Part shown: piece by piece, positions 30,402-60,923 of the stretch
How the letters are laid out: every line of letters begins with the position of its first letter
How positions within the stretch are numbered: the first letter of the stretch is position 1
Origin: a virus
Strand: one strand, 5' to 3'
IMG/VR virus record: IMGVR_UViG_3300032242_001235
Span: 1 to 64,000 of that record
Length of the DNA: 64,000 nucleotides
Translations under genes and position numbers: made by a program
The notes under the pieces: model-generated
Database searches by the model: none
What the model was told of the DNA's origin: nothing
The model's input: only the letters and a program-made list of their open reading frames with translations

Positions 30402-33400
30402 ATGAGTATTCAATTTTCCGGCGGCTTCCAACTTACAGGTGGCTTCACTATTACGACAGAAAACGCTGATAGCAACTACAATTCTACAGTGGTAATGTTA
30501 AATGGTGAAACTGCATCAAAACTTCATACTGCTGATGCTAGTGGCAATAATCTTGCACTTACCCAAGTAGGTGCAGTTGCTACCAGTAAGTTTAATCCAT
30601 TTTTAGGCACAGGTAACTACGGACTTTCTATTGGAGCATCTGACACGCTAGTTACTCCCAACAATGCTGATGCATTTACATTTGGTACTGGTGATTTTTC
30701 TTTTGAAGTTTGGATCTTTTCAAGCGTATTCTCCACAGCATCATATTCTGCACCATTATGGACAAACTATGTATCAGGTGGTGCTGGCCTCAGTTTATAT
30801 TTAGAAGTACATGCTGGTCAACTTAGACTTCTTGATTTTAATGGATCTGGAAGCACCTTTGTCATTATTGGTGGAACAATAAGAGATAACTCTTGGCATC
30901 ATTTAGTAATGACTCGCCAGTCGGGGACAATCCGCGGCTTCATTAACGGTGTTCTAGTTACATCTGCTACTGGAATAACAACCAATTATACTGGCGTATT
31001 TTTAGCCAGTATTGGTCCTGGTCTTGCCGGTAATTATTTTAATGCTAGGATCATTAGGGGTGGTGTTCCAAGCCAATATTCTACATCAACTCTTACTACA
31101 AACGCAGTAGTATTCACTCCACCAACTGTACCGTTTACTGGTTCAGAATCGTTAACTACCAGCACCGCATCTGTAGTATTTTTGGCCGCCCAAGATGCAA
31201 GTTTCATTGATCAAAGTCCAAGATCAGCGCCGCTAACTCCATCAAGCACAGTTAAAGTAGTCACTAATACTCCGTTGGCAAGTCAATTTACTAGAACATT
31301 TTCTAACTATGGTTCAACATGGTTCAATGGATCAACAAGTTATATTCAATCACCAATAGGCAGCTACGCAGATTTTGGCAGTGGTGCATTTACTATTGAA
31401 ACTTGGATCTTTCCTACAGTACCTACAACACAACAGGTAATAGCATTCCATGGTTGGTCTGGCTCTGGCGCATTTAACTATGGTTGGAATGCTCAGATTA
31501 ATACCAGCAATCAGCTGGCATTTTATGCCAACGGTACATTAACAGCGTTTACAGATCTAGTTGTGACTATGAACGCATGGAATCACATTGCCTTTGTTGG
31601 CATTGGTGGTGTGTTAACTGCATTTAAGAATGGTGTTAAGAGCGCAACTACATATACCTATACCGCCATAGTAGCTCGTCCAACAGCTACTACTGTAATT
31701 GGTGGGTGGAACAACAACACAGAAAATATTGCTGAACGCTTGTTCTATAATGGTGCTATTAGTAACTTCCACATTGTTAACGGCACTGCTTTATATACCT
31801 CATCCTTTACAGTATCAACTACACCAATAAGTGCTATTGGTACTAGTGTACTACTAACTTGTCAAAATGCTACAGGCACGATTACAGATGCCAGTACAGT
31901 ATCAAATGCATTGACAGTTGTAGGTGGAACTCGTATTATATCAGCAACCCCATTTACAACAACATATACTAGTGCTGATAGATCAGATGCATCTACATTT
32001 TATGGATCTGGATATTTTAGTGGATCTCCAAATTATATAAGTATCCCTGCTTCTGCCGCATTAGTACTCCCTGCCGATTTTACAATTGAATGTTGGGTCA
32101 ATGCATCGACTTTAAGCGGTAATCAGGGTATAATTGCATCTTCTGGTCAACGGTTTGGATTAATTAGACTTACAAATTATTTTTATTGGCTTGGTTCCAC
32201 TGATCTTTCTGGTAGTTCGATTACCATTTCTGCCAATACTTGGTACCACTTGGCGGCTTCTCGTGTTGGTACTACATTAAGATTATTTGTAAATGGTGTG
32301 CAAGCCAATAGTGGAACTTATTCTGAAGCATCCACTTCAAACATTTGGTATATTGGCAACGATCAAAGTAACGAAATTTTTAACGGATATATCTCCAATA
32401 TACGAGTAGTAAAGGGCACCGGACTTTATACCACTAATTTTGTTCCACCAACTACACAATTGCCTACTGTTTCAGGGACTAGTCTGTTAACACTACAAGG
32501 TAGAACAACTAGCACAAATGTTATTTCTATCTATGATGAAAGTGCCAACAGCCTGGCAGTTACCGCATACGGTTCTCCAACACAGGGCTCGTTCTCACCA
32601 TTTAACCAAGGTGGATATAGTTACTATTTTAACGGTGCAGGTGATTACTTAACTATTCCAGCAAGCACAAACAACGCATTAGGTAGTGATTTTACAATAG
32701 AAGTATGGGTCTATACAACTATTGCAAATCAAACATATGGTTCTGGCATTGCTGGTACATACGATGGCGGTAGTAACGGCGGGTGGAGTTTAATCATTAA
32801 CCGAAGCACTGGCGGACCAATTGGCATTGGATTTATCCATGCAAATGCAATACAACAGTCTTACACAACGGCTTATTTGGCAATTAATACATGGCATCAT
32901 ATTGCAATTACCAGAAGTGGAACTACACTAAAAACATACCTAAATGGCACACAGGTTGCCACAGGAACTTATGCTACAGCAGACACGGTTTCTGCTATCA
33001 ATTACATTGGATCTCAGGGTGTTGGTTCATACCATAACGGTTATATTTCCAATCTTCGTGTAATTAAAGGTACAGCGATTTACACTGCTAACTTCGCACC
33101 ATCATATACTCCATTAACTGCTGTCGATAATACGGTTTTATTAACTGCACAGGCTAATTCGTTTAGTGATGCATCTACATTAACTAACACAATAACAAGA
33201 GTGGGTGCAGCAAGTGTTCGACCATTTACACCATTCCCACAATTTAGAGCATACAATGCATTTGTGGATGGCAGTAGCATTTACATGAACGGTACCAGTG
33301 ACTATATAGCAACACCTGCTAATGCTGCAATGACATTTGGTAACAATGATCATACTGTAGAATTTTGGTACTATTTGCCAAATACTGCCCATGCGGCCGG

Positions 33401-36400
33401 TTATTCTACACAATGGAAATACAGTAGCGGCAGTACACAACAAGGCACTAACGATTATTATTTCCAAACTGGTACTGCAGGAGGTGGCAGTGGCGGCCTT
33501 GCATTAGGTACTGGTGGTGGTTGGGCATTGTCTGCAATCTCAATCTCTGCTACACAGTTCAACGCATTAGCTGGGCAGTGGACACATATTGCTTGGACTA
33601 GAGCAAGCAACGTATTTAGATTATTCTTCAACGGCGTGCTAATGGGCAGTGCAACATACACTGGTAGTATTGCTGCACAGGGCGGTGCTATGCTACTGGG
33701 ACAGGATAGCAGCAATAATTATGGAGGCGGATACTATAGTGGATATCGTGTTATCAACGGATATGCATTGTATACTGGCGGATTCACTCCACCAACCAGT
33801 CCATTGACCGCAGTTCCATATACACAATTATTGACAGCAAACACTGCTACTTTTGTTGACAGCAGTTATAACAACTTCTCTATCACCAGAACTGGCACTA
33901 CATCCACACGCTTTAGCCCAAATACACCAACAGTGTTATCTAATGGTAACAGTGTATATTTTGATGGTAGCACAAGTGCTATTACATTGCCAACAGCATT
34001 TGCATCCACAATTGCTGGTTTGGCAGGTTCCATAACCACAATGGAAGCATTTATTTTCCCAACAAATACTACATCAAGAGATGAAACTATTATTGGTGGG
34101 ATTCCAGCAGTTGGTACAAATGGTAGATGGTCTTTTGTAATTACTACTGGCGCAACAACATTCACTATTAAATTCATATGGACAACTGATACTTCAACGG
34201 CTGTATCAGTAGCAACCACGGTAGTCACTGGTAGAACAAATACTTGGAATCATGTTGCTGTGGTGATTGATGCTTCTATTGCTGCAACTACCAATGTCAC
34301 ATTGTTTATAAATGGAACCGCACAAGGATTCCCATATCAAGTATTCACTTCACAAACATTCACTTATGATTATGTGAAGATTGGATTTGATACTGGTTAT
34401 ACTAACCGATTCACTGGATATATGTCTAACCTAAGAGTAATCAAAGGCACCATTCCCTATATATACAAAATTACTCCACCTGTAATTAATTTAAACACTA
34501 GTACATTCACTCGATTGTTAACTGCACAAACAGTAAACATGAATGATACAAGTGTTAATAGTTTGGTAGCAACTAGGGGCGGAACTACAATGCCTCAAAG
34601 ATTTAGTCCATTTGGAAATACTACTGCTGATTTGGGATATAGTGGGTATTTTAACGGCACTACAGATTATGTACAGGTTCCTGCAGGCCCAGCATTTGCA
34701 CCTGGAACAGCAGACTTTACTGTTGAGGGTTGGTTTTATCCAACCAACACAATGGCCACGCAAGGGGCTATTTGGACGCAATCAATATCAGGTACTAATT
34801 ACTTTGTCATTTTTGCAACTAATAATGTTATTCAATTTTATGGAACATTGAGTGGCGGTGGAACCGCTATTTCCAGTGGATCCAATAATTGGTCAGTCAA
34901 CTCATGGAATCATTTTGCAGTTGTTAGAACTAGCGGATCCGTAAAAGTATACCTTAACGGCATTGCAGGTACTGCTACAGCAGATATTAATAACTATTCC
35001 AATATATCATATGTACCTACTATTGGTAGATATACCCATGTGGCCACTAACTTCTTCTATGGATACATTTCCAATCTAAGATATTTAAATAGGATAGCAC
35101 TATATACTGGTAACTTTACAGTACCTGCCTCACCGTTGGCTGTTACACAAAGTTCTAGTACAAACATTGCTGCACTTACTACTATACCAACTAACGGTAG
35201 TAGTGTGTTTTTTAATGGTAGTACAGATTATTTGACTGCCCCTTCAAATCCTGCGTTTCAATTTGGTACAGGTGCATTTACCATGGAAGCCTGGATTAAT
35301 CCAACTGTGACTGCTCCAACAGTTACGCAGTGGATTATTAGTAATATAGATTCAGCAAGTGGTAATACACAATGTGGTTTATCGATACTTGCTACTTCAA
35401 ATAAATTACAGTTTCAAACTTGGAATGCTGCTATATTAACAAGTACAGCCGCAATTTCTCTTAATGTTTGGACACATGTAGCAATATCATTTGACGGGAC
35501 AACTTATAAATTATTCATTAATGGAGTTTTGGATACCAGCGGAATAACTCTTTATAATTTTAGTTCAGCAGGAACAGCCAAAATTGGATATGCTCTTTCA
35601 GGCAATTCATACTTTACTGGGCTTATGTCTAATGCCCGTATAGTAAAAGGTACAGCAGTATATACTACAGCATTTACACCAAGTACATCACCACTAACTG
35701 CAATAACAAACACAAGTTTATTGACTTGCCAATCAACTACTATAATTGATAATTCAATTAATAATTATACTATCACTTCTTTTGGAACCCCATCGGCTAT
35801 TAAAACACTTAGTCCGTTCGGTAACACCCCGCAGTTGTTGACATTCCAATCAACTACCTTTGTTGATAATAGTACAAACGCATTTACTTTAACAACAGGC
35901 GGAACGGCTGGCCCAGCTTCACTTAGCCCATTTGTAGATTCAACCAATATAACTTCAACAGCATACAGTGTATATTTTAACGGTACTACTGACAATTTGA
36001 CATTACCAGTTAGTACAGCAACAACTCAATTAGGATCATCTGATTTTACTATTGAAGGTTGGATGTTCTTTACTGAAGTTACAAATGATCATACTTTAGT
36101 ATATTGGAATGGTGCTTCGAGCGGATATGCAGCAGTTCATGTAAGACAAATAGCAGGTAAGTGGGCATTGTGGATATCTGCAACTGGCTCAGCTTGGGCA
36201 GTTCAACAAAATACTTTAGGTTCAACAATTACTTCAAATACATGGTATCATGTTGCAGTGGTTCGTAGTGGTACAAATTTTAAATTATATATTAACGGAT
36301 CTGATGTAACCTCTGGTGGTTATACTGTATCAGGATCGTTAATGACAACTTATACAACAAATAACATAGGGTTGTATAATAGTTCAAATTATTACATGAG

Positions 36401-38414
36401 CGGGTATATCTCCAATTTTCGAATGGTAATTAGCACCGCCTTGTACACCGCATCATTTGCACCAACTAATACTCCATTGTCTGCGATTACCAATACAGCA
36501 CTATTGACTTGTCAATCAAGTACTATTAAAGATAACAGTGCTAATGCTGCTACTATCACTACAGTAGGTAGTGCTGCGGTATCCGCATACAATCCATTTA
36601 ATACTAGATATAGTTTTGCATTTAACGGTACTTCAGATTACATAGAATACGCACACAATACAAATCAATGGATTCCAGCATCAACTAGTTTTGCAGTTGA
36701 ATGTTGGTTTATGATGACTAAAACTGGTGCTGAACAAGTTATTTTTACAAAAGGTTATCAAGGTTCACCAACATATGCTGAATTTGCAATGATTGTTACT
36801 AGTGGAAATATGTTAACATTCTTAATGTCTGCTGATGGCGGAAATTGGATTGTTAATATTGCAGATACTGTGGCTATTGCTGTGAACACTTGGTATCATG
36901 TTGCAGGAGTTCGTACTGGTGAAAATATTGTCAAATTATACAAGAACGGTGTAAGTGTAGGAACCCCGGTGTTGACTTCAGTAGCTATGTATAACCACAC
37001 CGCAGGTATTCGCCTTGGTGCTCACATGTCTAGCAGCTATCTACAAGGATTTATATCCAACGCAAGATTTACTGTTGGTGGTGATGCAATATATAGTACT
37101 AACTTCATTCCCACAACATCACCATTGACTACAAGTACTGGTAATACATTATTATTGGCATGCCAGTCTAGTACACTTGTTGATAATAGTGTTAATAACT
37201 TTGCATTAACTGCGGTTGGATCTCCAACAGTAAAAGTAACCAATCCGTTTACTACTAATTACAGTTATTACTTTAATGGTACTAGCAGTGATTATTTGAC
37301 AATACCTGCCTCTGGGGCATTAGATTTTGGAACATCGAATTTTACAATTGAAATATGGGCATATCCCACAGCATCTGGTGCAAACCGTAGATTTTATTCT
37401 AATTGGGGTAGTTCTGGATCAGTACAGATAGGTTTTAGGCAAGAAAGTAATAATACGCTTCGCTTTTTCACAACGACTTCGGGAATTGACTTCTCATCAT
37501 CTACCCTATTGACATTGAATGCATGGAATCATTGTGCAATAGTGAGAAACGGATCTGTATTTACAATGTTCTTAAATGGTATAATTGTTGGTACAGTGAC
37601 TTCTTCATCAGCCATGCCATCCACTGCATCAATACCTACTTACATTAGTACATATGATGGAACAAATGAACCGTGGAGCGGATTCCTTGCCGATCTTCGT
37701 GTTGTGAAAGGTGTAGCAGTATATACTGGTGGATTTACGCCAATAGCTCCACCGTTACCAATATCAAATACCACGGCTACATCAACTGCTACAACTAGCT
37801 TGATAGTTTTGGGTAATAACGGTAGCATTGTGGATCAAACTGGTAAGAGTAATGTCATAGTAGTTGGTGCAACAGCAGTGGATCCATCTGTATACAAATT
37901 TGGTAGTGGGTCAATTAAATTTAACGGAACTACTGATTATCTAAACATAGTTAATACAGGTACTGTAGTGACTGGTAACTTTACTGTTGAGGCTTGGATT
38001 TATCCAACTTCAGTGACTGGATCTACTCGTACATTCTGGACTTTAGGAACAGAAGTTGCCAACAGATACACAACTGGTATTGTTAGTACTTCTTCAATAT
38101 ATACAAACCTTTATGGTGCTGGATCTGTTAACTACGCCAATACTACAATTGTGGCCAATACTTGGACCCATGTGGCAATGGTTCGAAGTGGATCTACAAT
38201 TAAATGGTACATTAACGGAGTTGCATCTGCAACAACTGATACACAATCTGGAACTTTGGGCAACAATTCTACGCTAAAAATTGGCGCAGATTCAGGCGGT
38301 GCAGCACTGTTTGTTGGTTACATGGATGATTTTAGATTCAGTCTAATTGCAAGATATACAAGTAACTTCATTCCACCAACAGCTAGCCTGCCAACTTATA
38401 TGCCATTTGTGTAA
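30402..38414 (+). CDS. Giant adhesin with twelve LamG-like domains
   Basis: Encodes 2670 residues, the longest gene in the window, starting five bases after the preceding stop. Counting the closing motif (YISNLRVIKGTAIYTANFAP and variants), I find about 12 LamG-like jellyrolls in tandem, each about 210 residues. Each contains a YFNGxxDYL strand, FTIExW, a NTWYHxAxxRSG segment, and an FINGVxxG strand. The sixth and seventh closers are most diverged (IKGTIPYIYKITPP, LNRIALYTGNFTVP). It is a paralogue of the seven-domain protein at 19898. The domains are well diverged at protein level, so the array is old or under diversifying selection. Likely role: multivalent glycan binding at the tail. Confidence 0.85.
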   Translation: MSIQFSGGFQLTGGFTITTENADSNYNSTVVMLNGETASKLHTADASGNNLALTQVGAVATSKFNPFLGTGNYGLSIGASDTLVTPNNADAFTFGTGDFSFEVWIFSSVFSTASYSAPLWTNYVSGGAGLSLYLEVHAGQLRLLDFNGSGSTFVIIGGTIRDNSWHHLVMTRQSGTIRGFINGVLVTSATGITTNYTGVFLASIGPGLAGNYFNARIIRGGVPSQYSTSTLTTNAVVFTPPTVPFTGSESLTTSTASVVFLAAQDASFIDQSPRSAPLTPSSTVKVVTNTPLASQFTRTFSNYGSTWFNGSTSYIQSPIGSYADFGSGAFTIETWIFPTVPTTQQVIAFHGWSGSGAFNYGWNAQINTSNQLAFYANGTLTAFTDLVVTMNAWNHIAFVGIGGVLTAFKNGVKSATTYTYTAIVARPTATTVIGGWNNNTENIAERLFYNGAISNFHIVNGTALYTSSFTVSTTPISAIGTSVLLTCQNATGTITDASTVSNALTVVGGTRIISATPFTTTYTSADRSDASTFYGSGYFSGSPNYISIPASAALVLPADFTIECWVNASTLSGNQGIIASSGQRFGLIRLTNYFYWLGSTDLSGSSITISANTWYHLAASRVGTTLRLFVNGVQANSGTYSEASTSNIWYIGNDQSNEIFNGYISNIRVVKGTGLYTTNFVPPTTQLPTVSGTSLLTLQGRTTSTNVISIYDESANSLAVTAYGSPTQGSFSPFNQGGYSYYFNGAGDYLTIPASTNNALGSDFTIEVWVYTTIANQTYGSGIAGTYDGGSNGGWSLIINRSTGGPIGIGFIHANAIQQSYTTAYLAINTWHHIAITRSGTTLKTYLNGTQVATGTYATADTVSAINYIGSQGVGSYHNGYISNLRVIKGTAIYTANFAPSYTPLTAVDNTVLLTAQANSFSDASTLTNTITRVGAASVRPFTPFPQFRAYNAFVDGSSIYMNGTSDYIATPANAAMTFGNNDHTVEFWYYLPNTAHAAGYSTQWKYSSGSTQQGTNDYYFQTGTAGGGSGGLALGTGGGWALSAISISATQFNALAGQWTHIAWTRASNVFRLFFNGVLMGSATYTGSIAAQGGAMLLGQDSSNNYGGGYYSGYRVINGYALYTGGFTPPTSPLTAVPYTQLLTANTATFVDSSYNNFSITRTGTTSTRFSPNTPTVLSNGNSVYFDGSTSAITLPTAFASTIAGLAGSITTMEAFIFPTNTTSRDETIIGGIPAVGTNGRWSFVITTGATTFTIKFIWTTDTSTAVSVATTVVTGRTNTWNHVAVVIDASIAATTNVTLFINGTAQGFPYQVFTSQTFTYDYVKIGFDTGYTNRFTGYMSNLRVIKGTIPYIYKITPPVINLNTSTFTRLLTAQTVNMNDTSVNSLVATRGGTTMPQRFSPFGNTTADLGYSGYFNGTTDYVQVPAGPAFAPGTADFTVEGWFYPTNTMATQGAIWTQSISGTNYFVIFATNNVIQFYGTLSGGGTAISSGSNNWSVNSWNHFAVVRTSGSVKVYLNGIAGTATADINNYSNISYVPTIGRYTHVATNFFYGYISNLRYLNRIALYTGNFTVPASPLAVTQSSSTNIAALTTIPTNGSSVFFNGSTDYLTAPSNPAFQFGTGAFTMEAWINPTVTAPTVTQWIISNIDSASGNTQCGLSILATSNKLQFQTWNAAILTSTAAISLNVWTHVAISFDGTTYKLFINGVLDTSGITLYNFSSAGTAKIGYALSGNSYFTGLMSNARIVKGTAVYTTAFTPSTSPLTAITNTSLLTCQSTTIIDNSINNYTITSFGTPSAIKTLSPFGNTPQLLTFQSTTFVDNSTNAFTLTTGGTAGPASLSPFVDSTNITSTAYSVYFNGTTDNLTLPVSTATTQLGSSDFTIEGWMFFTEVTNDHTLVYWNGASSGYAAVHVRQIAGKWALWISATGSAWAVQQNTLGSTITSNTWYHVAVVRSGTNFKLYINGSDVTSGGYTVSGSLMTTYTTNNIGLYNSSNYYMSGYISNFRMVISTALYTASFAPTNTPLSAITNTALLTCQSSTIKDNSANAATITTVGSAAVSAYNPFNTRYSFAFNGTSDYIEYAHNTNQWIPASTSFAVECWFMMTKTGAEQVIFTKGYQGSPTYAEFAMIVTSGNMLTFLMSADGGNWIVNIADTVAIAVNTWYHVAGVRTGENIVKLYKNGVSVGTPVLTSVAMYNHTAGIRLGAHMSSSYLQGFISNARFTVGGDAIYSTNFIPTTSPLTTSTGNTLLLACQSSTLVDNSVNNFALTAVGSPTVKVTNPFTTNYSYYFNGTSSDYLTIPASGALDFGTSNFTIEIWAYPTASGANRRFYSNWGSSGSVQIGFRQESNNTLRFFTTTSGIDFSSSTLLTLNAWNHCAIVRNGSVFTMFLNGIIVGTVTSSSAMPSTASIPTYISTYDGTNEPWSGFLADLRVVKGVAVYTGGFTPIAPPLPISNTTATSTATTSLIVLGNNGSIVDQTGKSNVIVVGATAVDPSVYKFGSGSIKFNGTTDYLNIVNTGTVVTGNFTVEAWIYPTSVTGSTRTFWTLGTEVANRYTTGIVSTSSIYTNLYGAGSVNYANTTIVANTWTHVAMVRSGSTIKWYINGVASATTDTQSGTLGNNSTLKIGADSGGAALFVGYMDDFRFSLIARYTSNFIPPTASLPTYMPFV

Positions 38415-38467: not shown

Positions 38468-41206
38468 ATGACCATAGCTAGTAATTTATCGTTTTTAGAA
38501 AACGCCGCAGGTGCGATCACTACCGGTACGATAAATGCCCAATATGCGCCCATTACTTTCAGTATTAACAGTTCAGAAGCTGGGCGCTTTGATCTCAACA
38601 ATTATTTGTTGTTGGGCTATACTACAAGTCAAGGCGCATACAGGTTACAAGTAAACGGTAACATGTTGATTAATGGTACTTTATCAGTTACCACTGCATC
38701 CTTTACTAACGTCGTTGGTGTCATCACAACTGCATCTAATATTGCAGGTGGTGCTGCTGGACAAATTGTGTATCAATCAGCCCCTGGACTAACTGCATTC
38801 AGTAGTAGTTTAACATTTTCTGCAGGATCTGGATTGAGTGTTGGCGGCAACATCAACTTTACCGGTAACTTATATCAAAACGGCTCATTGTTTAGTGGTG
38901 GTGGTGGCGGTACTGCATCTGGTACAGGTACTACAACTACATTCGTAATATCTAACATTACCCCTACAAATAGCACAATAACAGGTGCTTTACAAGTTTA
39001 TGGTGGTATGGGTATTGGCGGCGGCATTTATTCAGGTGGTACTGTTACTGCTACTAACCTAGTAACGGCTGGTGTTGGCGGTGGTATTAGTGGTGCAAGT
39101 TATGTTAACTCGTTTAACATGTGGGCAACTGGTACATTAACTGCGACAAACCTTATAGTAGGCGGAAATGCATTTGTTAACGGTATTGCACTTGGATCAT
39201 CAACTGGTACAACCAGCACATATATTATTCAAAATACAACCCCATCAAACAGCACTAACTCAGGTGCATTGCAAGTATGGGGTGGTGCTGGTATTGGATT
39301 AGGGTTAGTTGTTGGCGGTGTCGTCACAGCTACATCTATTGCTACAACTGGTTTAGGCGGTGGTATTAGTGGTGCAAGTTATGTTAATTCGTTTAACATG
39401 CAAGCAACTGGTACAATTACTGCAACAAGCATTGTAGTTACTGGTACTGCTACTAGTACAAGTACATTAACTGGCGCAGTAGTTATTACTGGCGGGGTTG
39501 GTATTGGCGGCAACTTATATGTTGGCGGTAGTATTTTTAGTAGTGGTGGTAGTGTCGGCGCTGGTGGATCCGCTGGTGGAACAACATATACTAACGTCAT
39601 AGCAAACGGATTTGTACAAAGTCCGTATCCTTATATTGCACCTAAGGGTAGATTAAATCACGGCCCTGGAACAGTGGCATTTATTAACACATCAACAACT
39701 GGTAGTAGCCCATGGGGTATTACTACAGATGCATTTGGTAACTTTGCATATGTAGCAAACTACACTGCTGGTACAATTACACAATATGTAATTAATACAT
39801 ATACAGGATTCTTAACAACATCAACATTTGATATTGCTACGGGTACTAACCCTTATGGTATTACTAGTGAGCCAACAGGTAGATTTGTTTATGCAGCCAA
39901 CTATGGTGCATCTACTGTTGGCCAATTCTTTATCAACACATTCACTGGCACCTTAACACAGATTACTACAGCAATTGCTTCTGGTACTAACCCATATGGT
40001 ATTACCAGTGAACCAACTGGCAAATATGTGTATGTAGCAAACTATGGTGCAGCAACAATCAGTCAATATGCTATTAACACCACAACTGGTGCATTGATAT
40101 CAATTGGTACCCCAATTTCTGCTGGTACTAACCCAGTATATCTAGCTGCTGATCCAACAGGTAGATTCTTGTATGCAGCAAACTATGGTTCTGCCAACAT
40201 ATCACAATATGCTATTAGCACAGGTACTGGTATCCTAATATCGTTAGGTACAGCTATTGCAGCCGGTACTAACCCGTTCAGCATTGGAGTTGATCCATCT
40301 GGTAGATTTGTATACGCAGCAAACTATGGTTCTGCTAACATTTCACAATACAGTATTAACCAATTCTCTGGAACATTGACACAGATTACGACAGCAGTGA
40401 GTGTTGGTGCTAACCCAGGTTCTGGAAGTTTGGCAATTGATCCATACGGAAAATATGTATATGTTGGTAACTCTACTATATTATATCAATACAGCATTAA
40501 CCAATACAACGGTGCATTGACACAGGTAGCATCAATTGCAGCGGGTCCAGGTCAGACTGGTATGACTATTGACCCTACTGGTAAATATCTATTCTCTGTC
40601 AACAACACAAACGCAACTGTTGCCCAATACGGATTAAGTAACTTTTCTGTAGGTGGATTAGTAGTTGGATCTGCTCAAGCTTCTACATCAACAACCACAG
40701 GTGCGGTAATTGTACAGGGTGGTATTGGTGTTGGTGGTGCAGTATGGACATCAGCCCTTGGTATTTTTACACCACCCGGAACAGCTAATGCTACAATTGG
40801 CGGTATAAACAACTTGTTCATGTTATTTGGAACAATCAGCGGCGTATACCAAATAACAAGTGGTATTGTATCTACAACTAACATGATAGTTACAGGCTAC
40901 GAAGTAGCAAGTCCATTATATATTGGTGTTGGCGGTACTGCAAGTTATAGTTTAAGTACTACATCTACAAACAATGTATTGTTAGTGGGTTCTACTGGTT
41001 ATACTGCAACATTATTGTTCCCTACATCAAGTTTACAAGATGGTCAAATTGTTAGAGTTGCAGTAAGTGGTAATGCAGTAGCAATTACCGTTAGTAATGT
41101 AACTTTATTGCCAGCATTAAGTGCAACATCAATTGCTGCTGGATCAGCATTTGCATATTCATATCGATTGGCAAACAATACTTGGTACAGGATACAGTTT
41201 GGTTAA
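38468..41206 (+). CDS. Fibre protein with a seven-bladed YVTN-type beta-propeller
   Basis: Encodes 912 residues. The N-terminal part has fibre sequence with about three GGxGxGG units and a duplicated GGGISGASYVNSFNM segment. About residues 413-722 are seven tandem blades of about 43 residues with the pattern NPYGITxxPTGRFVYAANYG followed by a QYxINTxTGxL strand, the signature of YVTN/lactonase-like propellers. A fourth GGxGxGG unit follows, then a C-terminal beta domain of about 110 residues ending TWYRIQFG. Seven blades is the usual closed number. Such propellers normally bind ligands or proteins; enzyme activity cannot be inferred. Likely a receptor-binding fibre. It ends the giant block. 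Confidence 0.85.
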   Translation: MTIASNLSFLENAAGAITTGTINAQYAPITFSINSSEAGRFDLNNYLLLGYTTSQGAYRLQVNGNMLINGTLSVTTASFTNVVGVITTASNIAGGAAGQIVYQSAPGLTAFSSSLTFSAGSGLSVGGNINFTGNLYQNGSLFSGGGGGTASGTGTTTTFVISNITPTNSTITGALQVYGGMGIGGGIYSGGTVTATNLVTAGVGGGISGASYVNSFNMWATGTLTATNLIVGGNAFVNGIALGSSTGTTSTYIIQNTTPSNSTNSGALQVWGGAGIGLGLVVGGVVTATSIATTGLGGGISGASYVNSFNMQATGTITATSIVVTGTATSTSTLTGAVVITGGVGIGGNLYVGGSIFSSGGSVGAGGSAGGTTYTNVIANGFVQSPYPYIAPKGRLNHGPGTVAFINTSTTGSSPWGITTDAFGNFAYVANYTAGTITQYVINTYTGFLTTSTFDIATGTNPYGITSEPTGRFVYAANYGASTVGQFFINTFTGTLTQITTAIASGTNPYGITSEPTGKYVYVANYGAATISQYAINTTTGALISIGTPISAGTNPVYLAADPTGRFLYAANYGSANISQYAISTGTGILISLGTAIAAGTNPFSIGVDPSGRFVYAANYGSANISQYSINQFSGTLTQITTAVSVGANPGSGSLAIDPYGKYVYVGNSTILYQYSINQYNGALTQVASIAAGPGQTGMTIDPTGKYLFSVNNTNATVAQYGLSNFSVGGLVVGSAQASTSTTTGAVIVQGGIGVGGAVWTSALGIFTPPGTANATIGGINNLFMLFGTISGVYQITSGIVSTTNMIVTGYEVASPLYIGVGGTASYSLSTTSTNNVLLVGSTGYTATLLFPTSSLQDGQIVRVAVSGNAVAITVSNVTLLPALSATSIAAGSAFAYSYRLANNTWYRIQFG
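39706..40637 (+). repeat. Seven tandem propeller-blade repeats
   Basis: Seven in-frame repeats of about 130 bases, each encoding a blade with GITxxPTGRFVYAANYG-like sequence. Blades 2 to 5 are most alike, while blades 6 and 7 lose part of the ANYG loop (YVGNST, SVNNTN). Confidence 0.85.
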
Positions 41207-41234
41207 TTTTTTTAACTGGTGGCTCATTGCCTTT

Positions 41235-41242
41235 ATTAAATA
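41235..41242 (+). promoter_or_regulatory. Late promoter-like ATTAAATA, five bases before ATG
   Basis: TAAATA at 41237-41242 is followed by TGGGT and the ATG at 41248. T4 geometry puts the start on the A of this ATG. It decides the start of the oxygenase gene. Confidence 0.6.
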
Positions 41243-41247
41243 TGGGT

Positions 41248-41859
41248 ATGAAACAACTTTTAGATCAACCGATAGTCCTGCACAATGTTATTAGTGCCGA
41301 ATACCAATCACACATACGACATAATTTTATGGGCGAGGGCATATGTCCGTGGTATTACACTACAGAAAGTACCCAAGAGGGTGATGTATTTGAAACAACC
41401 AGTGTGTTATTTCACTTAATGTTTTTCTCCCTACAAGGCGGACAAAAAAGTAACTTTTTTGATTTAGTTAGGCCCCTGATGTGGGAGGCAATTGAAAAGG
41501 CTGGATTACCATTTCATGAATTTTTACAAGTTCGAGCAATAAGTCAATTTCCGTTTAATACTGCTCGAACTCATAATAAAGTTCATACTGATTTGCCCAT
41601 GCTTCAAGAGCCATATGCTACCGCAGTGTATTACATTAACGGGGATGATCAAGGAATTGACGGCGATACAGTAATTTTTAATGAAACTGCCTTAGATATA
41701 CCAGAAGATCAAGTAGTTTCTAAATATAAATCATTTACGGAAAAGATGAGAGTGTCCCCTAAACAAGGATCAGTAGTGATATTTCCGGGACATCAATATC
41801 ATTCAAGTACATTGCCAACTAAAACGGCACGGGCAGTGTTAAATTTCTCTTGGAGATAA
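41248..41859 (+). CDS. 2OG-Fe(II) oxygenase (prolyl 4-hydroxylase-like)
   Basis: Encodes 203 residues from ATG 41248. The frame is open further upstream into the previous gene, but the TAAATA-N5-ATG arrangement marks this start. The catalytic set is visible: H113-x-D115 in KVHTDLPM, distal H185 in GHQYHSSTLP, and R195 ten residues later for 2-oxoglutarate, within VVIFPGHQYH ... RAVLNFSW. The enzyme is predicted to hydroxylate a protein or small-molecule substrate using Fe(II), O2 and 2-oxoglutarate. A second oxygenase and a cupin lie within 3 kb. The substrate is unknown; modification of fibre proteins encoded next to it is a guess. Confidence 0.82.
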   Translation: MKQLLDQPIVLHNVISAEYQSHIRHNFMGEGICPWYYTTESTQEGDVFETTSVLFHLMFFSLQGGQKSNFFDLVRPLMWEAIEKAGLPFHEFLQVRAISQFPFNTARTHNKVHTDLPMLQEPYATAVYYINGDDQGIDGDTVIFNETALDIPEDQVVSKYKSFTEKMRVSPKQGSVVIFPGHQYHSSTLPTKTARAVLNFSWR

Positions 41860-41872
41860 CGATATCGTTGCC

Positions 41873-41880
41873 AATAAATA
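41873..41880 (+). promoter_or_regulatory. Late promoter-like AATAAATA
   Basis: Predicted start near 41886. The leader carries AAGGA (41895-41899) before the ATG at 41906. Confidence 0.65.
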
Positions 41881-41905
41881 TACAAACAATTAACAAGGAT
41901 TTTTT

Positions 41906-42874
<969 letters not shown>

Positions 42875-42875
42875 T

Positions 42876-43457
42876 ATGAATTATAAAGTTGAAAGTTGGT
42901 TTCCAAGACCTATATACTATGCAGATGATATTTGCCAAGAGCATTTGGGTGATTTTGAGATTGCTGTAAAAGACGCAATTAAAGATGAAGGCACAAAAAG
43001 AAATCCATTTCTAGGTGTGAATAGTTCACATAAGACTGTGTCTGAACTTCATAAACTACCTGCACTGGCTCCTTTAGCTTCTAGTATATTGGACCATGCT
43101 ATGAATTTCTGTTTAATAATAGGGTATGATCCAGAGACCGCATTTTCATTCAACATAATAAACATGTGGGTTAATATTAGTGATCAACACGATTACAATT
43201 TCCCACATACCCACCCTGGATCTGTAATTTCAGGTGCGTTTTATATTAAGGCAACACCTGAAAATATAATTACTTTTTATGATAAATATGAAACACTAAC
43301 ATTACCTCTTGGCCAAGATACAATGTATTCGATGTCGCACACATCATATGATTGTTTACCTGGTCGGCTGTTATTGTTTAAAAGTGATTTTGTTCACGGG
43401 AATGTTCCGCAAAAACTTCCTGGAGAAAAAATAGTAATAAGTTTTAATATAGGTTAA
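42876..43457 (+). CDS. 2OG-Fe(II) oxygenase, TIGR02466-like
   Basis: Encodes 193 residues, starting two bases after the preceding stop. The pattern NFPHTHPGSVISGAFYIK (H111, H113) and LLLFKSDFVHGNVPQKLPGE (H174), followed by KIVISFN, matches the putative 2OG-Fe(II) oxygenase family often found in aquatic phages next to tail genes. K185 occupies the place where many members have arginine for 2-oxoglutarate. The N-terminal WFPRPIYYADD is also typical. The family's substrate is not known to me. Translation is probably coupled to the glycine-rich adhesin gene, which hints at a role in fibre modification or tail assembly. Confidence 0.75.
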   Translation: MNYKVESWFPRPIYYADDICQEHLGDFEIAVKDAIKDEGTKRNPFLGVNSSHKTVSELHKLPALAPLASSILDHAMNFCLIIGYDPETAFSFNIINMWVNISDQHDYNFPHTHPGSVISGAFYIKATPENIITFYDKYETLTLPLGQDTMYSMSHTSYDCLPGRLLLFKSDFVHGNVPQKLPGEKIVISFNIG

Positions 43458-44569: not shown

Positions 44570-45333
44570 TGTTTTTCTTTTTTAAACCAACAACTATTGT
44601 AGTTGATGCGTTTACATCCAATGATGCAGCCCACGACTATTACCCAATAGCAAAGTCAAATCGACATGTTCCTAACTGGTGGAAAGCACTGCCTGCAACA
44701 CTCGACGACCCTGTACATAGATTAGTCAAACGCGGTACTGTTAAACGGTGTCAAGGATTTGTTGATTTATATTCTAACAGTTTCTCTATACCTTTATGGT
44801 CTGATATATCCATAGAAATGGAACTGATAGCAGATCAAAAGATTTGGAGATATAAATTTGCAGATAAAAAAAGTTGGCTAGACTCACATGATCAACAACA
44901 ATACAATGGCATTGTAGATTATTCTAAGTATCAACAATTAAAGTTTAATCCACCTTGGTTCTTAGAAGAAAAATCTGGTGTAAAATTTATGATGAGCCAG
45001 CATACATGGAATATTGTTGAAGAATCAAGTAACTTCACAGTACTACCTGGTATTATAGATTTTAAATATCAATCATCAGTCAACATAAGTACCATGGTAA
45101 GATACCCTGAGGTAGGCTTGCTATCAATGATGTTTGAAGCAGGTACTCCGCTAGTACACTTGACTCCGCTAACTGACAAGCGGGTTGAAATTAAAACTCA
45201 TTTAATTAGTGCTACAGAGTTTGAAAGAAAACATCCTATGACTAAGTTTGTGGACAATTATAAAGAACGCAAAACTAGGATAGATGAACAAGAATCTAAA
45301 TGCCCGTTTACAAAATGGCGCAATAGTTTATAA
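44569..45333 (+). CDS. Conserved phage protein of unknown function
   Basis: Encodes 254 residues. Visible features are VPNWWKALPATLDDP near residue 35, RCQGFVDLYSNSFSIPLWSD near 60-80, and FNPPWFLEEKSGVKFMMSQH around 125-145. I recall a family with this WWKxLP ... CxGFxDYxxxxxxxPxWSD layout in T4-like cyanophages and pelagiphages, usually near tail fibre and oxygenase genes, without known function. The start overlaps the cupin stop by one base. Its stop overlaps the convergent Nudix gene by six bases, with no terminator between them. Confidence 0.65.
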   Translation: MFFFFKPTTIVVDAFTSNDAAHDYYPIAKSNRHVPNWWKALPATLDDPVHRLVKRGTVKRCQGFVDLYSNSFSIPLWSDISIEMELIADQKIWRYKFADKKSWLDSHDQQQYNGIVDYSKYQQLKFNPPWFLEEKSGVKFMMSQHTWNIVEESSNFTVLPGIIDFKYQSSVNISTMVRYPEVGLLSMMFEAGTPLVHLTPLTDKRVEIKTHLISATEFERKHPMTKFVDNYKERKTRIDEQESKCPFTKWRNSL

Positions 45334-45768
45334 TAAGTCTATCAACAATTCTAGTTTGGCTCTGACTGCCTTATTACCAAAACTGTTCTTAACACCTTGA
45401 TGTAATGGCTTTGGCCAAGCGTCAAATGCACACCATGCATAACCAGAATGTTCGTTGTTTAGAGTAGGGATAAATTCTTTATCAACTAACAATACATATG
45501 TGTTGTATTGAAAGTTTTGGTCATTACTGGTGAATAATTCTAAAGGAATTATCTTTTTAATTGGCGGACACTTGCCAACTTCTTCTGAAATTTCTCTATG
45601 TAATGCATCAACTACAGTTAAGTCAGTAGGTTCTTTTTTCCCACCAACCAGTCCCCAAGTTCCAGCAGTCTTGCCCTGTGTCCTATGAAGTAATAAAAAT
45701 CTTCTAGTATCTTTAGATAAGAATATTCCGCCACTACAGACGATTTGATTTAAAGTACTAGTCTCCAT
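45328..45768 (-). CDS. Nudix hydrolase
   Basis: Encodes 146 residues. The Nudix core is visible as GGKKEPTDLTVVDALHREIS followed by EEVG (R58, E59, E62, E63, G65). The catalytic REIxEEVG part is intact, but the first glutamate of the classical GX5E is absent and one residue is inserted. Nudix enzymes hydrolyse nucleoside diphosphates linked to other groups, including nucleotide-sugars, mutagenic NTPs and RNA 5' ends. Phage members include T4 NudE. It is last in the gp14-gp15-Nudix unit and overlaps gp15 by 19 bases, so it should be expressed late. The substrate cannot be told. Confidence 0.82.
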   Translation of the reverse strand: METSTLNQIVCSGGIFLSKDTRRFLLLHRTQGKTAGTWGLVGGKKEPTDLTVVDALHREISEEVGKCPPIKKIIPLELFTSNDQNFQYNTYVLLVDKEFIPTLNNEHSGYAWCAFDAWPKPLHQGVKNSFGNKAVRAKLELLIDLL

Positions 45769-47132
45769 AATTCAGGTATGTAAATTCCTTCGAAGCTCTT
45801 GCTCCAAGATCCGGATTCCCATTTGTATTGTATTCCGGTGTATGAATTAGTTATGTAAATGATGTCATTGGAGATAGTACTATTGAATATTACATGCCAT
45901 TCGGTACCATTCCATTCAATTATATCATTAGCATTGGCTTGGAAATCAGAGTTGTCACTGTTCTGCCAAGCAACTGGACCAACAAACCCTTCTTGACCAA
46001 ACTCAGCTGTATCATTAATGCCTTCTAATATCAAGTATCTTGTACCTGCCGCAACATTACTAGGTGAATATGTTTCAGGATTTATAATTGCATCAACAGT
46101 ACCACGCCCATTCACATTATAAGAACTTGTAATAATAGTATTACTAGGAACAGTATCCCTATCAAAGTTCAACAACATTTTAGTATCATCATTAGGGTCT
46201 AATGATATATAGGCAATAATTTCATTCCCATCAGAAGTGGTTAAAAATATCTTAGTCAACCCTGCACGGAATTGTCCTGGATATAAATCTAATAAACTAA
46301 ACCAACTTGCTGTACCACTAGGTATTGTGGTATCATCAATGCCAGATGCTGAATGATTTTTTAATAAACTTGCAACATTGTCTAACACCATTAATTCAAA
46401 ATTACCAGGTGTAACAACAGTTTTAAACAACGGTTGATCATATCCTAAATCAATTGAGTCTGTAGGATTAACAAATGCACTTGCTATAATTTTAGTAATA
46501 ATACCCAATCGTTTAACCTTAGCGGGTGGGGTGATCCATATAGGTGTAGAAAATGTTAAGTTACCAATGTCAATATTCTGTTCAGCACCTTGTGGAATCT
46601 GTCGATTGGTCCAATTAATATCATCTAATTGCAATACAGTCAAACTGGTCCAGTCTAGATAGTTGTCAGTTGTTTGTAATTCCAAACTAGGATTAAACAA
46701 ATACGCCAACTGTTCTATAATTTGTAACTTTTGATCAGAATTGGTAGTCCAGATATCAGCCGAGAATGTTAATTTATACGGCGCTGGCATAATGCGTTCT
46801 ACCGTGTAACCTTGCCCCTGGGCGTATGTGTATTGTTGAGTATCTTCGTTGTACTCGCGCTCGCGTATTTGCACCTTGCTAACAAAAGTAGGATCCTGTA
46901 ATCTTGTCTGCTCGTACTTTAGACCTTTAATGTAACACGCAATAAATGGTGCTGATGGTACAGTGTTCTCTGAGTTTTTCTTTAGTACGCTAGCTGCCTG
47001 TCTACTAGGATCACCGTACATCACTGGTATCTGAATAATTTTTCCAGTACCATCTTTGTAACTAAAGTTACTCATAACTCGCATGTATTGTGTCAAATAT
47101 CTGCGTATTTGACCATCGTAGAACCAATCCAT
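45750..47132 (-). CDS. 15: Tail sheath terminator and completion protein gp15
   Basis: Encodes 460 residues. The first 215 match the T4 gp15 outline: FYDGQIRRYLTQYMRVMSNF corresponds to the T4 FYNSSFRRYATLMGDLFSNI region, followed by IQIPVMYGDPSR, MPAPYKLTFSADIWTTNSDQ with KLQIIEQLAYLFNPSLEL, and a TFSTPIWITPP segment. T4 gp15 (about 272 residues) caps the tail tube and sheath and binds the neck. Here a C-terminal extension of about 190 residues ends in tryptophan modules (IIEWNGTEWHVIFN, YKWESGSWSKSF) like those in the sheath and gp14. It starts just after gp14 in the same minus-strand unit. Confidence 0.85.
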   Translation of the reverse strand: MDWFYDGQIRRYLTQYMRVMSNFSYKDGTGKIIQIPVMYGDPSRQAASVLKKNSENTVPSAPFIACYIKGLKYEQTRLQDPTFVSKVQIREREYNEDTQQYTYAQGQGYTVERIMPAPYKLTFSADIWTTNSDQKLQIIEQLAYLFNPSLELQTTDNYLDWTSLTVLQLDDINWTNRQIPQGAEQNIDIGNLTFSTPIWITPPAKVKRLGIITKIIASAFVNPTDSIDLGYDQPLFKTVVTPGNFELMVLDNVASLLKNHSASGIDDTTIPSGTASWFSLLDLYPGQFRAGLTKIFLTTSDGNEIIAYISLDPNDDTKMLLNFDRDTVPSNTIITSSYNVNGRGTVDAIINPETYSPSNVAAGTRYLILEGINDTAEFGQEGFVGPVAWQNSDNSDFQANANDIIEWNGTEWHVIFNSTISNDIIYITNSYTGIQYKWESGSWSKSFEGIYIPELWRLVL

Positions 47133-47133
47133 T

Positions 47134-48345
47134 TTAATTATCCGCCTTTGGTTTGAGTGCCTTACTTAGTGCTTGTCGTTCCGCAACTACTTTTCCATTA
47201 ATCGTAGCAGTAGTTGTATTATTAATAAATCCAGCTTTTTGTGTTTGTCTAACATCGGCATTTTTAAATACGCCATTAGCAGTATCTTGAGCACCAAATT
47301 CATTCATGGTCATACGCACATTCTTTTCAAACATGGTCCAATGACGACCATCAAATCGGTATAACACATTAGGGAAGAAATCTGTTCTTAAGTAAAACGA
47401 GCCGACTGCTTGATGTAGTGGAAATGCTACTCCTGAATCAAACGGAGCACCATTTGGAGGAACCCCGTCACCAGTTAAATAGCCCACATACAAATTCTTT
47501 GATGGTGTATGTAATACCATACTGGCATCTAATACTGCTTGATCTATACTGGCATCATCTATTGTATCGCTTGCATCGGCGACATCAACAAGTCCTGACT
47601 CCTTTGTAGGAATAACATAAAAACTTTTTGTATTATATCCACTCTTTGGAGCATCTAATGTTGCTTGTTCAATAATTTGATTGTTAATTTCAATGCTCTT
47701 ATTGTAAGTGCTCAATAAATCTCGTAATGTAGTTCCGTCATCTGCCCCACTATCTGCATCAAAGATTTGTTTAAATTCTTGACTATCAACTAACGGTACA
47801 CATTTTGCTCTAACTAAATGCGGGTACCAAGTTACGCTAAATCCAGCAACTGGGCGAGTAACATCTTGTACCACATAGAATCTTTTCAAAGCCACATAAT
47901 TGTTATCCAACGCATATTCATCCTTCAAATGTGGCAGCTCGATTACATCTCCTGGCATGATTTTACGGGATAATGCCTCTACACTTGAGCTTAAATGGAA
48001 GTGAATCATTATGGTATCATTCTGTAGAAACAATCCAAACTGACTTAAATTGAGATCCAAGTCCTGCATTGTGTAGATTCCACGAATAACATACACATCG
48101 GGTTCGTAGTTTCTATCCCTGTTTTCCATGAATAGCACATCCTGTATCCCCAGTTCAGGAATAGGATTACTATTGTTTGGCAGAGTAGGTGATGATTCGG
48201 CCCCTACTGAATCTGGGCTAACTGGGCCAAGGTATTTGTGAATAAACACATCAACCCCGCCCACTTGAAAGCGTTCGTTAACTACGCGATCGATGAATTT
48301 GAAATCATTGCCTTTTTCAGGCCTGTAAAGTGACAATCTTGGCAT
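47134..48345 (-). CDS. 14: Neck protein gp14
   Basis: Encodes 403 residues. VGGVDVFIHKYLGPVSPDS and QNDTIMIHFHLSSSVEALSR with KIMPGDVIELPHL follow the order of T4 gp14 (RGVECYYVPREYVSPD; VQDEVTLSINPNLF; GDLIYFP). gp14 forms part of the neck that joins head and tail and gates DNA. The C-terminal region has a module GSFYLRTDFFPNVLYRFDGR followed by HWTMFE, which I recall from cyanophage gp14, then a QTQKAGFINNTTT tail. It is longer than T4 gp14 (256 residues). It is first in a minus-strand unit, with its late promoter five bases before the ATG, divergent from gp13. Confidence 0.85.
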   Translation of the reverse strand: MPRLSLYRPEKGNDFKFIDRVVNERFQVGGVDVFIHKYLGPVSPDSVGAESSPTLPNNSNPIPELGIQDVLFMENRDRNYEPDVYVIRGIYTMQDLDLNLSQFGLFLQNDTIMIHFHLSSSVEALSRKIMPGDVIELPHLKDEYALDNNYVALKRFYVVQDVTRPVAGFSVTWYPHLVRAKCVPLVDSQEFKQIFDADSGADDGTTLRDLLSTYNKSIEINNQIIEQATLDAPKSGYNTKSFYVIPTKESGLVDVADASDTIDDASIDQAVLDASMVLHTPSKNLYVGYLTGDGVPPNGAPFDSGVAFPLHQAVGSFYLRTDFFPNVLYRFDGRHWTMFEKNVRMTMNEFGAQDTANGVFKNADVRQTQKAGFINNTTTATINGKVVAERQALSKALKPKADN

Positions 48346-59336: not shown

Positions 59337-60923
59337 ATGGCAAAAAGTTTAGACGGCAATTTAGTAAAAAAGGCACACGCTACTCAACGGTGGAGTGACG
59401 ATGACCTTCAACATATGGCCGCTTGCATGGACATGATTGATGGACCAAAGTATTTCTTAGATAATTTCTTTTTTATTCAACATCCTACTAAAGGTAAGAT
59501 ACAATATAAAGCGTTTGACTATCAAGAAAGATTATTAGACAGCTATCACGGACATCGATTTAGTGTAAACATGTTAGGTCGTCAGATGGGTAAGACTACC
59601 ACTGCTGTAGGATACTTGCTATGGTATGGCATGTTCGTGCCTAATAGTACTATCTTAATATCTGCTCACAAGTTTACTGGTGCCCAAGAAATTATGCAAC
59701 GCTTGCGATATGCATACGAAACTTGCCCTGATTTTATTCGTGCAGGTGTTACAAGTTACAATAAACAAAGTATTGAATTTGATAACGGTAGTCGTATTGT
59801 TGCACAAACAACAACTGAAACAACAGGTCGTGGTATGTCTGTATCTTTATTATACTGCGACGAGTTTGCCTATGTTGAACCAAACATTGCTGTAGAGTTT
59901 TGGACATCCATTTCGCCTACACTAGCAACTGGTGGTAAAGCAATTATTACTTCTACACCAAACAGTGACGAAGATCAATTTGCGCAAATTTGGAATGAAG
60001 CCAACAAGAGATTTGACGAATCTGGCAATTCAACTGAATTGGGTAAAAACGGATTTTTCCCATGTATTGCTATTTGGAGTGAACATCCTGACCGTGATGA
60101 AAAATGGAAAAGCGAAGAAGTATCTCGAGTAGGATACGAAAGATTCCAACGAGAACACGAGTGTGAATTCTTGATCTTTGACGAGACATTAATTAATAGC
60201 ATTTGTTTGTCTGGAATGTCAGGGATAGAACCTCTTATGAAAATGGGTGAAGCCCGTTGGTATAAAAAGATTAAACCACAAAATACATATATTGCAAGTT
60301 TGGACCCTAGTTTAGGCACTGGGGGAGACTTTGCTGCTATTGAAATTTTAGAATTACCTAGTATGGATCAAGTGTGTGAATGGCGAAGTAATATGACTCC
60401 TATTCAAAGTCAAGTTAGGATCTTACGGGACTTATTAAATCACATTGAAGAAAAATGTCAAAAAACTGGAATTAAATCCAGCATTTACTACACTGTAGAA
60501 AATAACACACTAGGTGAAAGTGCCCTAATGGCTATTGAAGCATTGGGTGAAGAATCATTCCCTGGATTGTTTTTGAGTGAACCAGTTAAACGCGGGCATG
60601 TGCGTAGATTTCGTCGTGGATTTAATACAACACACGGCTCTAAAATTGCATCGTGTGCCAAGTTCAAACAGTTATTGGAAACTAGTAAATTGAATGTTTT
60701 TAGTAAAATATTAATTAGTGAACTAAAAACATTCGTGGCCAGCGGCACAACATTTAAAGCTAAAGGCGGGCAACATGATGATTTGGTTAGCGCAATGTTG
60801 CTGTGTGTTCGTATGATTTTAACTTTACAAGAGTGGGATCCGTTAATTTATGACAAAATGCGAGATCAGGACGGGTTAGCAGAGTACGATTTGCCCATGC
60901 CAATCTATATCAGTCAATATTGA
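59337..60923 (+). CDS. 17: Large terminase subunit gp17
   Basis: Encodes 528 residues (T4 gp17 610). The ATPase domain shows a Walker A-type loop G81-RQMGKTT88, Walker B LLYCDEFA with D175-E176, and the coupling motif TSTP near 205. The nuclease domain shows D323 in ASLDPSLGTGGDF, E388 in YYTVENNTLGE, and the H480-D481-D482 motif in GGQHDDLVSAMLL, the RNase H-like triad of gp17. It drives DNA translocation into the prohead and cuts the concatemer at headful. It is likely leaderless. The T4 N-terminal extension is shorter here. Identification is secure. Confidence 0.95.
   Translation: MAKSLDGNLVKKAHATQRWSDDDLQHMAACMDMIDGPKYFLDNFFFIQHPTKGKIQYKAFDYQERLLDSYHGHRFSVNMLGRQMGKTTTAVGYLLWYGMFVPNSTILISAHKFTGAQEIMQRLRYAYETCPDFIRAGVTSYNKQSIEFDNGSRIVAQTTTETTGRGMSVSLLYCDEFAYVEPNIAVEFWTSISPTLATGGKAIITSTPNSDEDQFAQIWNEANKRFDESGNSTELGKNGFFPCIAIWSEHPDRDEKWKSEEVSRVGYERFQREHECEFLIFDETLINSICLSGMSGIEPLMKMGEARWYKKIKPQNTYIASLDPSLGTGGDFAAIEILELPSMDQVCEWRSNMTPIQSQVRILRDLLNHIEEKCQKTGIKSSIYYTVENNTLGESALMAIEALGEESFPGLFLSEPVKRGHVRRFRRGFNTTHGSKIASCAKFKQLLETSKLNVFSKILISELKTFVASGTTFKAKGGQHDDLVSAMLLCVRMILTLQEWDPLIYDKMRDQDGLAEYDLPMPIYISQY

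Follow-up and report, generated by a model that had tools for sequence, protein, structure and literature searches.

A predicted seven-bladed YVTN/Lactonase-type propeller in the tail fibre of a T4-like phage: a probable recognition head with a variable face

Most fibre tips whose details are known belong to cultured phages of model bacteria, enteric ones among them. Outside the T4-type phages, propellers have already been described in host-recognition proteins, namely those of phi11, PhiKZ, and PRD1. Gp45 of phage phi11 is a trimeric receptor-binding protein with a five-bladed propeller platform, in which an N-terminal strand closes the last blade; the cavity of this protein could hold the GlcNAc of wall teichoic acid (PMC4901313). 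The same paper places a seven-bladed propeller, PhiKZ gp131C (PDB 4GBF), at the baseplate periphery, its function being unconfirmed, and lists P2 of PRD1 among the host-recognition proteins with a propeller (PMC4901313). Nozzle propellers of T7 and SU10 and the propeller of the K1F endosialidase are noted in PMC10607447. A Kelch-type propeller was described in phage CBB (PMC5259590), and fibres of contractile injection systems combine propeller lectins with collagen-like shafts (PMC12923769). Highly repetitive beta-propellers amplified from single blades were collected in a data set that includes viruses, and the main text of that study makes no mention of phages or YVTN (PMC9218822). In the open-access literature subset that we searched, no description of a YVTN/lactonase propeller in phage tails was found.

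The propeller described here is encoded in record IMGVR_UViG_3300032242_001235, which is ~90 kb long; the window, i.e., the whole stretch of DNA that was analysed, comprises 64,000 nucleotides and corresponds to positions 1 to 64,000 of the record. Judged by its genes for gp23, gp15, a contractile sheath, tube, and terminase, the virus is a T4-like phage of bacteria. The gp23 capsid gene (PF07068, E=3.5e-30) is partial and located at the end of the record, and the tail tube gene was recognised through a PHROG match. The other genes that place the virus, together with the neighbour of the propeller gene, are as follows.

30402-38414, plus strand: 2670-aa protein with 12 concanavalin/LamG-type (PF13385) repeats, adjoining the propeller gene upstream (domain matches)
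45750-47132, minus strand: T4 gp15-like tail sheath stabiliser (PF16724, 80.6 bits; phrog_11196, phrog_227)
50299-53292, plus strand: tail sheath protein of a contractile tail (phrog_10581, E=2e-197)
59337-60923, plus strand: terminase large subunit (profile matches)

Several large fibre-type genes in a row precede the propeller gene, and the nearest of them encodes the 2670-aa LamG-type protein; PHROGs related to this protein are named baseplate wedge or virion structural proteins. Several features of the neighbourhood were recorded separately. The sheath gene is unusually long (997 aa) and matched PHROG 10581, with no match to PF04984. The gp15-like gene and neighbouring structural genes (45328-48345) are on the minus strand, amid structural genes on the plus strand. 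Just downstream of the propeller gene, the region 41182-43457 has matches to 2OG-Fe(II) oxygenase families; such genes often accompany fibre genes in T4-like phages. A 2566-aa fibre-like protein encoded at 2945-10645 has a Pfam Phycobilisome match at aa 1258-1310 (46 bits, cut-off 22.2), which may be a degenerate repeat match, the sequence around it being helical-looking. The 90-kb record, itself a fragment, has no reverse transcriptase match (PF00078), and the idea of a target diversified by a diversity-generating retroelement was rejected on this ground.

The open reading frame that holds the propeller is laid out as follows; all features are on the plus strand.

38468-41206, plus strand: gene for the fibre-like protein of 912 aa that holds the propeller, within the fibre-gene run (ORF and translation)
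38984-39019, plus strand: fibre repeat motif GALQVYGGMGIG, first upstream copy (motif search)
39263-39298, plus strand: fibre repeat motif GALQVWGGAGIG, second upstream copy (motif search)
39473-39508, plus strand: fibre repeat motif GAVVITGGVGIG, third upstream copy (motif search)
39614-39670, plus strand: conserved N-cap VQSPYPYIAPKGRLNHGPG, consensus SPYPxVAPxxIIxxGxG (alignments; low pLDDT in the monomer model)
39671-39697, plus strand: N-terminal D strand that closes blade 7, the velcro strand (E67-75 of m3bf29f3e643e, E20-28 of mb1fc1a67cf13)
39698-39838, plus strand: blade 1 (this and blades 2 to 6 from blade alignment, blade HMM, and AlphaFold2 model)
39839-39979, plus strand: blade 2
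39980-40120, plus strand: blade 3
40121-40261, plus strand: blade 4
40262-40402, plus strand: blade 5
40403-40540, plus strand: blade 6, irregular, 46 aa
40541-40639, plus strand: blade 7, strands A-C only, its D strand being 39671-39697 (blade alignment, AlphaFold2 models)
40700-40735, plus strand: fibre repeat motif GAVIVQGGIGVG, downstream of the propeller (motif search)
40763-41203, plus strand: C-terminal beta-rich end domain of the fibre-like protein (low-confidence model)

The blades span aa 411-724; five have 47 aa, one has 46, and the last is without a fourth strand. The blade anchor motif occurs seven times in the 912-aa protein and never in 2000 shuffles, and at the DNA level TRF reports a 141-bp period at the blade array. 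The fibre repeat, with the consensus GA[LV]x[VI]xGGxG[IV]G, is present in three copies before the propeller and in one after it. The initial annotation had described exactly seven tandem blades between 39706 and 40637, flanked on both sides by fibre repeats. Blade number and flanks were both borne out, and the blades are in frame. The start of the domain was moved to ~39671, because the velcro strand, which lies outside the annotated interval and aligns with the D strands of the other blades, completes blade 7; the end was adjusted to ~40639. In the alignments, most of the related phage fibres have the N-cap ahead of the propeller.

Shaft repeats, the location in a fibre cluster, and a chaperone end domain in relatives identify the 912-aa protein as a phage tail-fibre protein, presumably a trimeric one. 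No chaperone domain was recognised in the protein encoded in the window itself. When the same kind of fibre was sought without a propeller, its C-terminal 147 aa found no relatives in the viral contigs, and its N-terminal 134 aa returned one partial match (42%).

We modelled the propeller module with AlphaFold2, using an input alignment of 12 related modules. The model has a mean pLDDT of 88.6 (93-98 in the core), a pTM of 0.87, and 28 strands, i.e., seven times four, in the order D-(ABCD)x6-ABC. In a second model of 577 aa, which includes the flanks, the 28 strands were recovered, and the confidence had sharp edges at aa 402 and 724, corresponding to 39671-40639. Across the domain, pLDDT was mostly 90-98 in both models. 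The domain is thus predicted to be a closed seven-bladed beta-propeller whose ring is shut by strand complementation: blade 7 is complete because the N-terminal D strand supplies its fourth strand. An open solenoid or a disordered stretch, which had been named as the outcomes that would speak against a propeller, was seen in neither model. The flanks did not resolve as a monomer, which would fit the sequence of a trimeric fibre. Both the entry of the chain (before D) and its exit (after C) are on the C-D edge of blade 7. A Foldseek search against solved structures returned closed seven-bladed propellers with TM scores up to 0.83; the best E-value was to 1l0q, a YVTN propeller of an archaeal S-layer protein, which is also the closest solved relative by sequence. 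Among viral predictions (BFVD), the top matches were A0A6J5R6I7 and A0A6J5SZJ1, with TM scores of 0.82-0.86 over 329-336 columns. PhiKZ gp131C (4GBF) was absent from the PDB matches of the phmmer and profile searches.

At the sequence level, the domain matches PF10282 (Lactonase) with 127.7 bits and E=7.8e-37, above the curated cut-off of 21.7 bits. The YVTN repeat model TIGR02276 scored 17 bits, below its cut-off of 27.85, and the domain is YVTN-like by its fold and by its best solved match, 1l0q. The Pfam match and the predicted fold uphold the proposal of a seven-bladed YVTN/lactonase-type propeller in the fibre of a T4-like phage.

A first scan for the same architecture in viral proteins found one phage contig, encoding a 1576-aa protein with two such propellers. 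Profile scans then placed the module in ~25 distinct uncultured phage contigs besides the record analysed here, in unrelated fibre-type proteins; additional matches that were secreted-protein-like or stand-alone (such as L025, L026, L030, L067, and L069) were left out of the phage set. All 38 complete modules have seven blades: the blade HMM counted exactly seven in 35, and three were assigned seven by inspection (L038 and L055, with the cap counted, and the middle module of L050, with one diverged blade). The number of modules per protein ranges from one to four (three in L042, four in L043 and L046). In L043 (2786-8155) and L046, the four seven-bladed propellers lie in one fibre gene with repeated linkers between them. 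A fibre in L027 (2393-3523) with an S74 chaperone has just two blades, owing either to a genuine deletion (a short form) or to the collapse of repeats in a short-read assembly. In L022 (1-3900), the fibre gene is preceded by two extra propeller ORFs, which end without fibre repeats and of which one has two modules or more; they are possibly separate adhesins of the same phage. A Peptidase_S74 intramolecular chaperone is encoded downstream of the module in L018 and L027, and the protein of P0003 has a BppL_N domain. The contigs are diverse: when 25 records were tested, T4-type gp23 was present in four (the one analysed here included), a PF04984 sheath in six, and neither in many; most of these records are fragments.

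A genome scan gave many bacterial secreted relatives, often lipoprotein-like, with one or two propellers. In these relatives, the propeller begins with strand B and ends after D/A. The phage modules start with D and end after C; judged by this strand order, the phage modules are a circular permutation of the bacterial ones, and entry from and exit to the fibre are therefore on one rim. The module was absent from the 50,697 records of isolated phages that were searched; the cultured phages had only stand-alone 6-phosphogluconolactonase-like genes with 21-28% identity, mostly in small unannotated records. The statement that no T4-type example had been described thus agrees with our searches of both the literature and cultured phages.

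The position of a blade in the ring says little about its relationships. The mean identity between modules was 0.555 for blades of the same index and 0.552 for blades of different index, so that the index is almost uninformative, although the closest module pairs keep the blade order. In most modules, the blades are as similar to blades of other modules as to those within the module. Some blades at different positions have 93-99% DNA identity (blades 2 and 4 of L018, blades 3 and 5 of L010). The blades of the module in the window have 51-72% DNA identity to each other and are old.

In propeller topology, the D-A and B-C loops lie on one face, and the A-B and C-D loops on the other. We assigned the faces from this standard topology and refer to the face with the D-A and B-C loops as the top. 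Across 245 phage blades, variability is highest at a set of columns that includes 6, 8, and 9 in the D-A loop, which flank an almost fixed Pro 7, and 24-27 in the B-C loop; strand C has variable columns as well (31, 33, and 30). The blade bodies are otherwise conserved across the phage blades, and so are the turns between A and B (DPTGR) and between C and D (NQSTGAL). In all of the 35 phage modules compared, differences between blades are greater at top-face columns than at strand columns. The median ratio of top to strand differences is 2.63 in the phages versus 1.59 in the bacterial relatives, in the same direction; since these non-fibre proteins also vary most on the top face, the fold itself accounts for part of the pattern. 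Ser, Gly, Asn, Thr, and Tyr are frequent at the variable positions. In the window, Tyr is present in the B-C loop of five of the seven blades, and an aromatic residue occupies column 8 in four; this composition would suit the binding of a glycan or protein.

We estimated dN/dS from parsimony counts on trees of the blades, which are recombining repeats. In the first of three phage lineages, dN/dS was 1.40 for the top, 0.15 for the bottom, and 0.32 for the strands (top p=0.002; P=0.0004 against random eight-column sets). The corresponding values were 1.33, 0.17, and 0.44 in the second lineage (top p=0.12) and 3.71, 0.44, and 0.30 in the third (top p=0.0009), with P=0.03 and 0.06, respectively, against random eight-column sets. 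Under a stricter filter, a value of 1.32 was obtained. Close pairs show the same excess. Between L052 and L056, the top has 12 replacements and no synonymous changes, and the remaining columns have 4 and 10 (p=2e-4). The ratio of replacements to synonymous changes is 34:1 for the top versus 17:20 elsewhere between L011 and L013 (p=7e-7), and 39:6 versus 32:48 between L010 and L037. For the module in the window, with seven blades that are few and highly diverged, dN/dS was 0.79 for the top versus 0.43 and 0.52 for the other two classes, which is below 1 and not significant; the contrast between its faces is weak (P ~0.08 against random columns, P ~0.06 for amino acid differences).

The variability of one face suggests receptor binding as the best-supported function, and we consider it probable that this closed YVTN/Lactonase-superfamily propeller, spliced into a tail-fibre-like protein, is a non-catalytic recognition head and not a lactonase. 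The initial annotation had left the choice between a receptor-binding head and an enzymatic tip; the former was retained and the latter was not supported. A lactonase or polysaccharide-degrading tip that acts on the host envelope or capsule would be in line with the Pfam Lactonase match over its cut-off, with the 6-phosphogluconolactonases among the nearest solved structures, and with the K1F endosialidase, a phage propeller enzyme according to PMC10607447. However, the 6-phosphogluconolactonase equivalog NF008258 scored 71 bits against a cut-off of 370, and no blade-specific conserved His, Glu, Lys, Arg, or Cys was found in any blade. Among such residues, conservation above 50% was confined to D13 and R17 in the DPTGR turn, which recurs in all seven blades alike and lies on the bottom face, and the module in the window has one His and two Glu in 349 aa. 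The missed equivalog score and the lack of a conserved blade-specific charged or His residue favour a non-catalytic head; an active site with diversifying loops would also be atypical, and an enzyme is very unlikely.

A role as structural spacer or bumper, be it in setting the distance between fibres, in stabilising the trimer, or in docking the fibre to a chaperone or the virion, would agree with the location in mid-protein between fibre repeats and with up to four copies along one fibre; docking could involve the N-cap and the turns of the bottom face, which are conserved. Such a role does not predict dN/dS above 1 on one face alone, nor the replacement excess of 12:0 and 34:1 on the top in close relatives, and we regard it as unlikely. 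The polar face, rich in Ser, Asn, Gly, and Tyr, could also belong to a general weak adhesin for glycans or particles (mucus, biofilm, algal surfaces); the neighbouring LamG/concanavalin-type protein with its 12 repeats, encoded in the same run of genes, and the relatives in secreted, lipoprotein-like proteins of environmental bacteria point in this direction. The diversification between near-identical phages suggests specific, changing targets instead, which makes weak adhesion a rather improbable explanation. Repeats are hard to assemble, and the two blades of L027 recall this problem, yet a chance repeat or mis-assembly can be set aside almost entirely: seven blades recur in independent contigs, a closed fold is predicted, and the blades in the window differ by 28-49% in DNA and therefore assemble uniquely.

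For the recognition head, the following mechanism can be proposed. The module would have been inserted into the shaft by replacing one hairpin loop; since entry and exit are both at the C-D edge of blade 7, splicing through a single hairpin loop is possible, with the attached edge on the bottom side. The propeller would then hang from the shaft by its bottom rim and present the variable top face to the cell, which we infer to be exposed because both chain ends leave on the side of the C-D loops. This face, rich in N, S, G, and Y, may bind a surface glycan or protein. Blades would duplicate and exchange within and between modules while their loops diverge, and the phage could therefore re-tool recognition with the scaffold undisturbed. 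The recurrence in ~25 contigs and the single variable face suggest an evolvable grip on host cells.

New with respect to the described systems is a fixed-size YVTN/Lactonase propeller, T4-type and wider, that is embedded in a fibre, permuted, and equipped with a diversifying face. Because it is widespread among uncultured phages and was found in none of the records of isolated ones searched, the module may represent a large class of host-recognition head that has gone unstudied. If recognition drives the diversification of one face, the positions that determine specificity can be read off the sequence of this repeat scaffold, which would aid the prediction of virus-host pairs in metagenomes.

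With the PF10282 Lactonase/YVTN propellers (1l0q, YbhE 1ri6, PpgL 6igb), the domain shares the family, the closed seven-bladed fold, and four strands per blade; it differs from them in being embedded in a fibre, permuted (D first) relative to the bacterial secreted relatives, and without an enzyme signature. Like phi11 Gp45, it is a propeller within a phage host-recognition protein with the last blade closed by an N-terminal strand; however, Gp45 has five blades, belongs to a Gram-positive siphophage, and is not repeat-homogenised, and no sequence similarity between the two was found. PhiKZ gp131C is likewise a seven-bladed propeller in a host-facing myophage protein, but its propeller is C-terminal, whereas the one in the window sits between fibre repeats. 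The uncultured Caudovirales proteins A0A6J5R6I7 and A0A6J5SZJ1 are named 'Lactonase, 7-bladed beta propeller' and 'COG3391' by automatic annotation only, and no description of them was found in the literature searched. The recent amplification of near-identical blades is a trait in common with the propellers in PMC9218822.

The mode of evolution is most like that of the Podospora HNWD proteins (HET-D/HET-E), in which WD40 repeats evolve in concert and positive selection acts on four codons of the top face, two in the d-a loop and two in the b-c turn (PMC1805685). In both systems, diversification affects d-a and b-c loop positions on one face, and homogenisation of the repeats may be a second parallel; in the phages, such diversifying selection was detected in three lineages and in close pairs, and as a trend only in the copy in the window. 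HNWD propellers are WD40 domains of fungal NLRs, whereas the phage module is a Lactonase/YVTN propeller in a fibre with its blade number fixed at seven. By this analogy, our best reading is that the module may be a receptor-recognition head that is exchangeable between fibres and evolves as the HNWD WD40 propellers do. More tentatively, it could be a counterpart of the HNWD- or VLR-type repertoires: a mobile seven-blade cassette of fixed size, present in unrelated environmental phages with up to four copies per fibre gene, with a scaffold kept uniform by duplication and conversion and one diversifying face, through which host recognition would change without a diversity-generating retroelement. 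The likeness to HNWD, drawn here as an analogy, is one in mode of evolution, not in ancestry.
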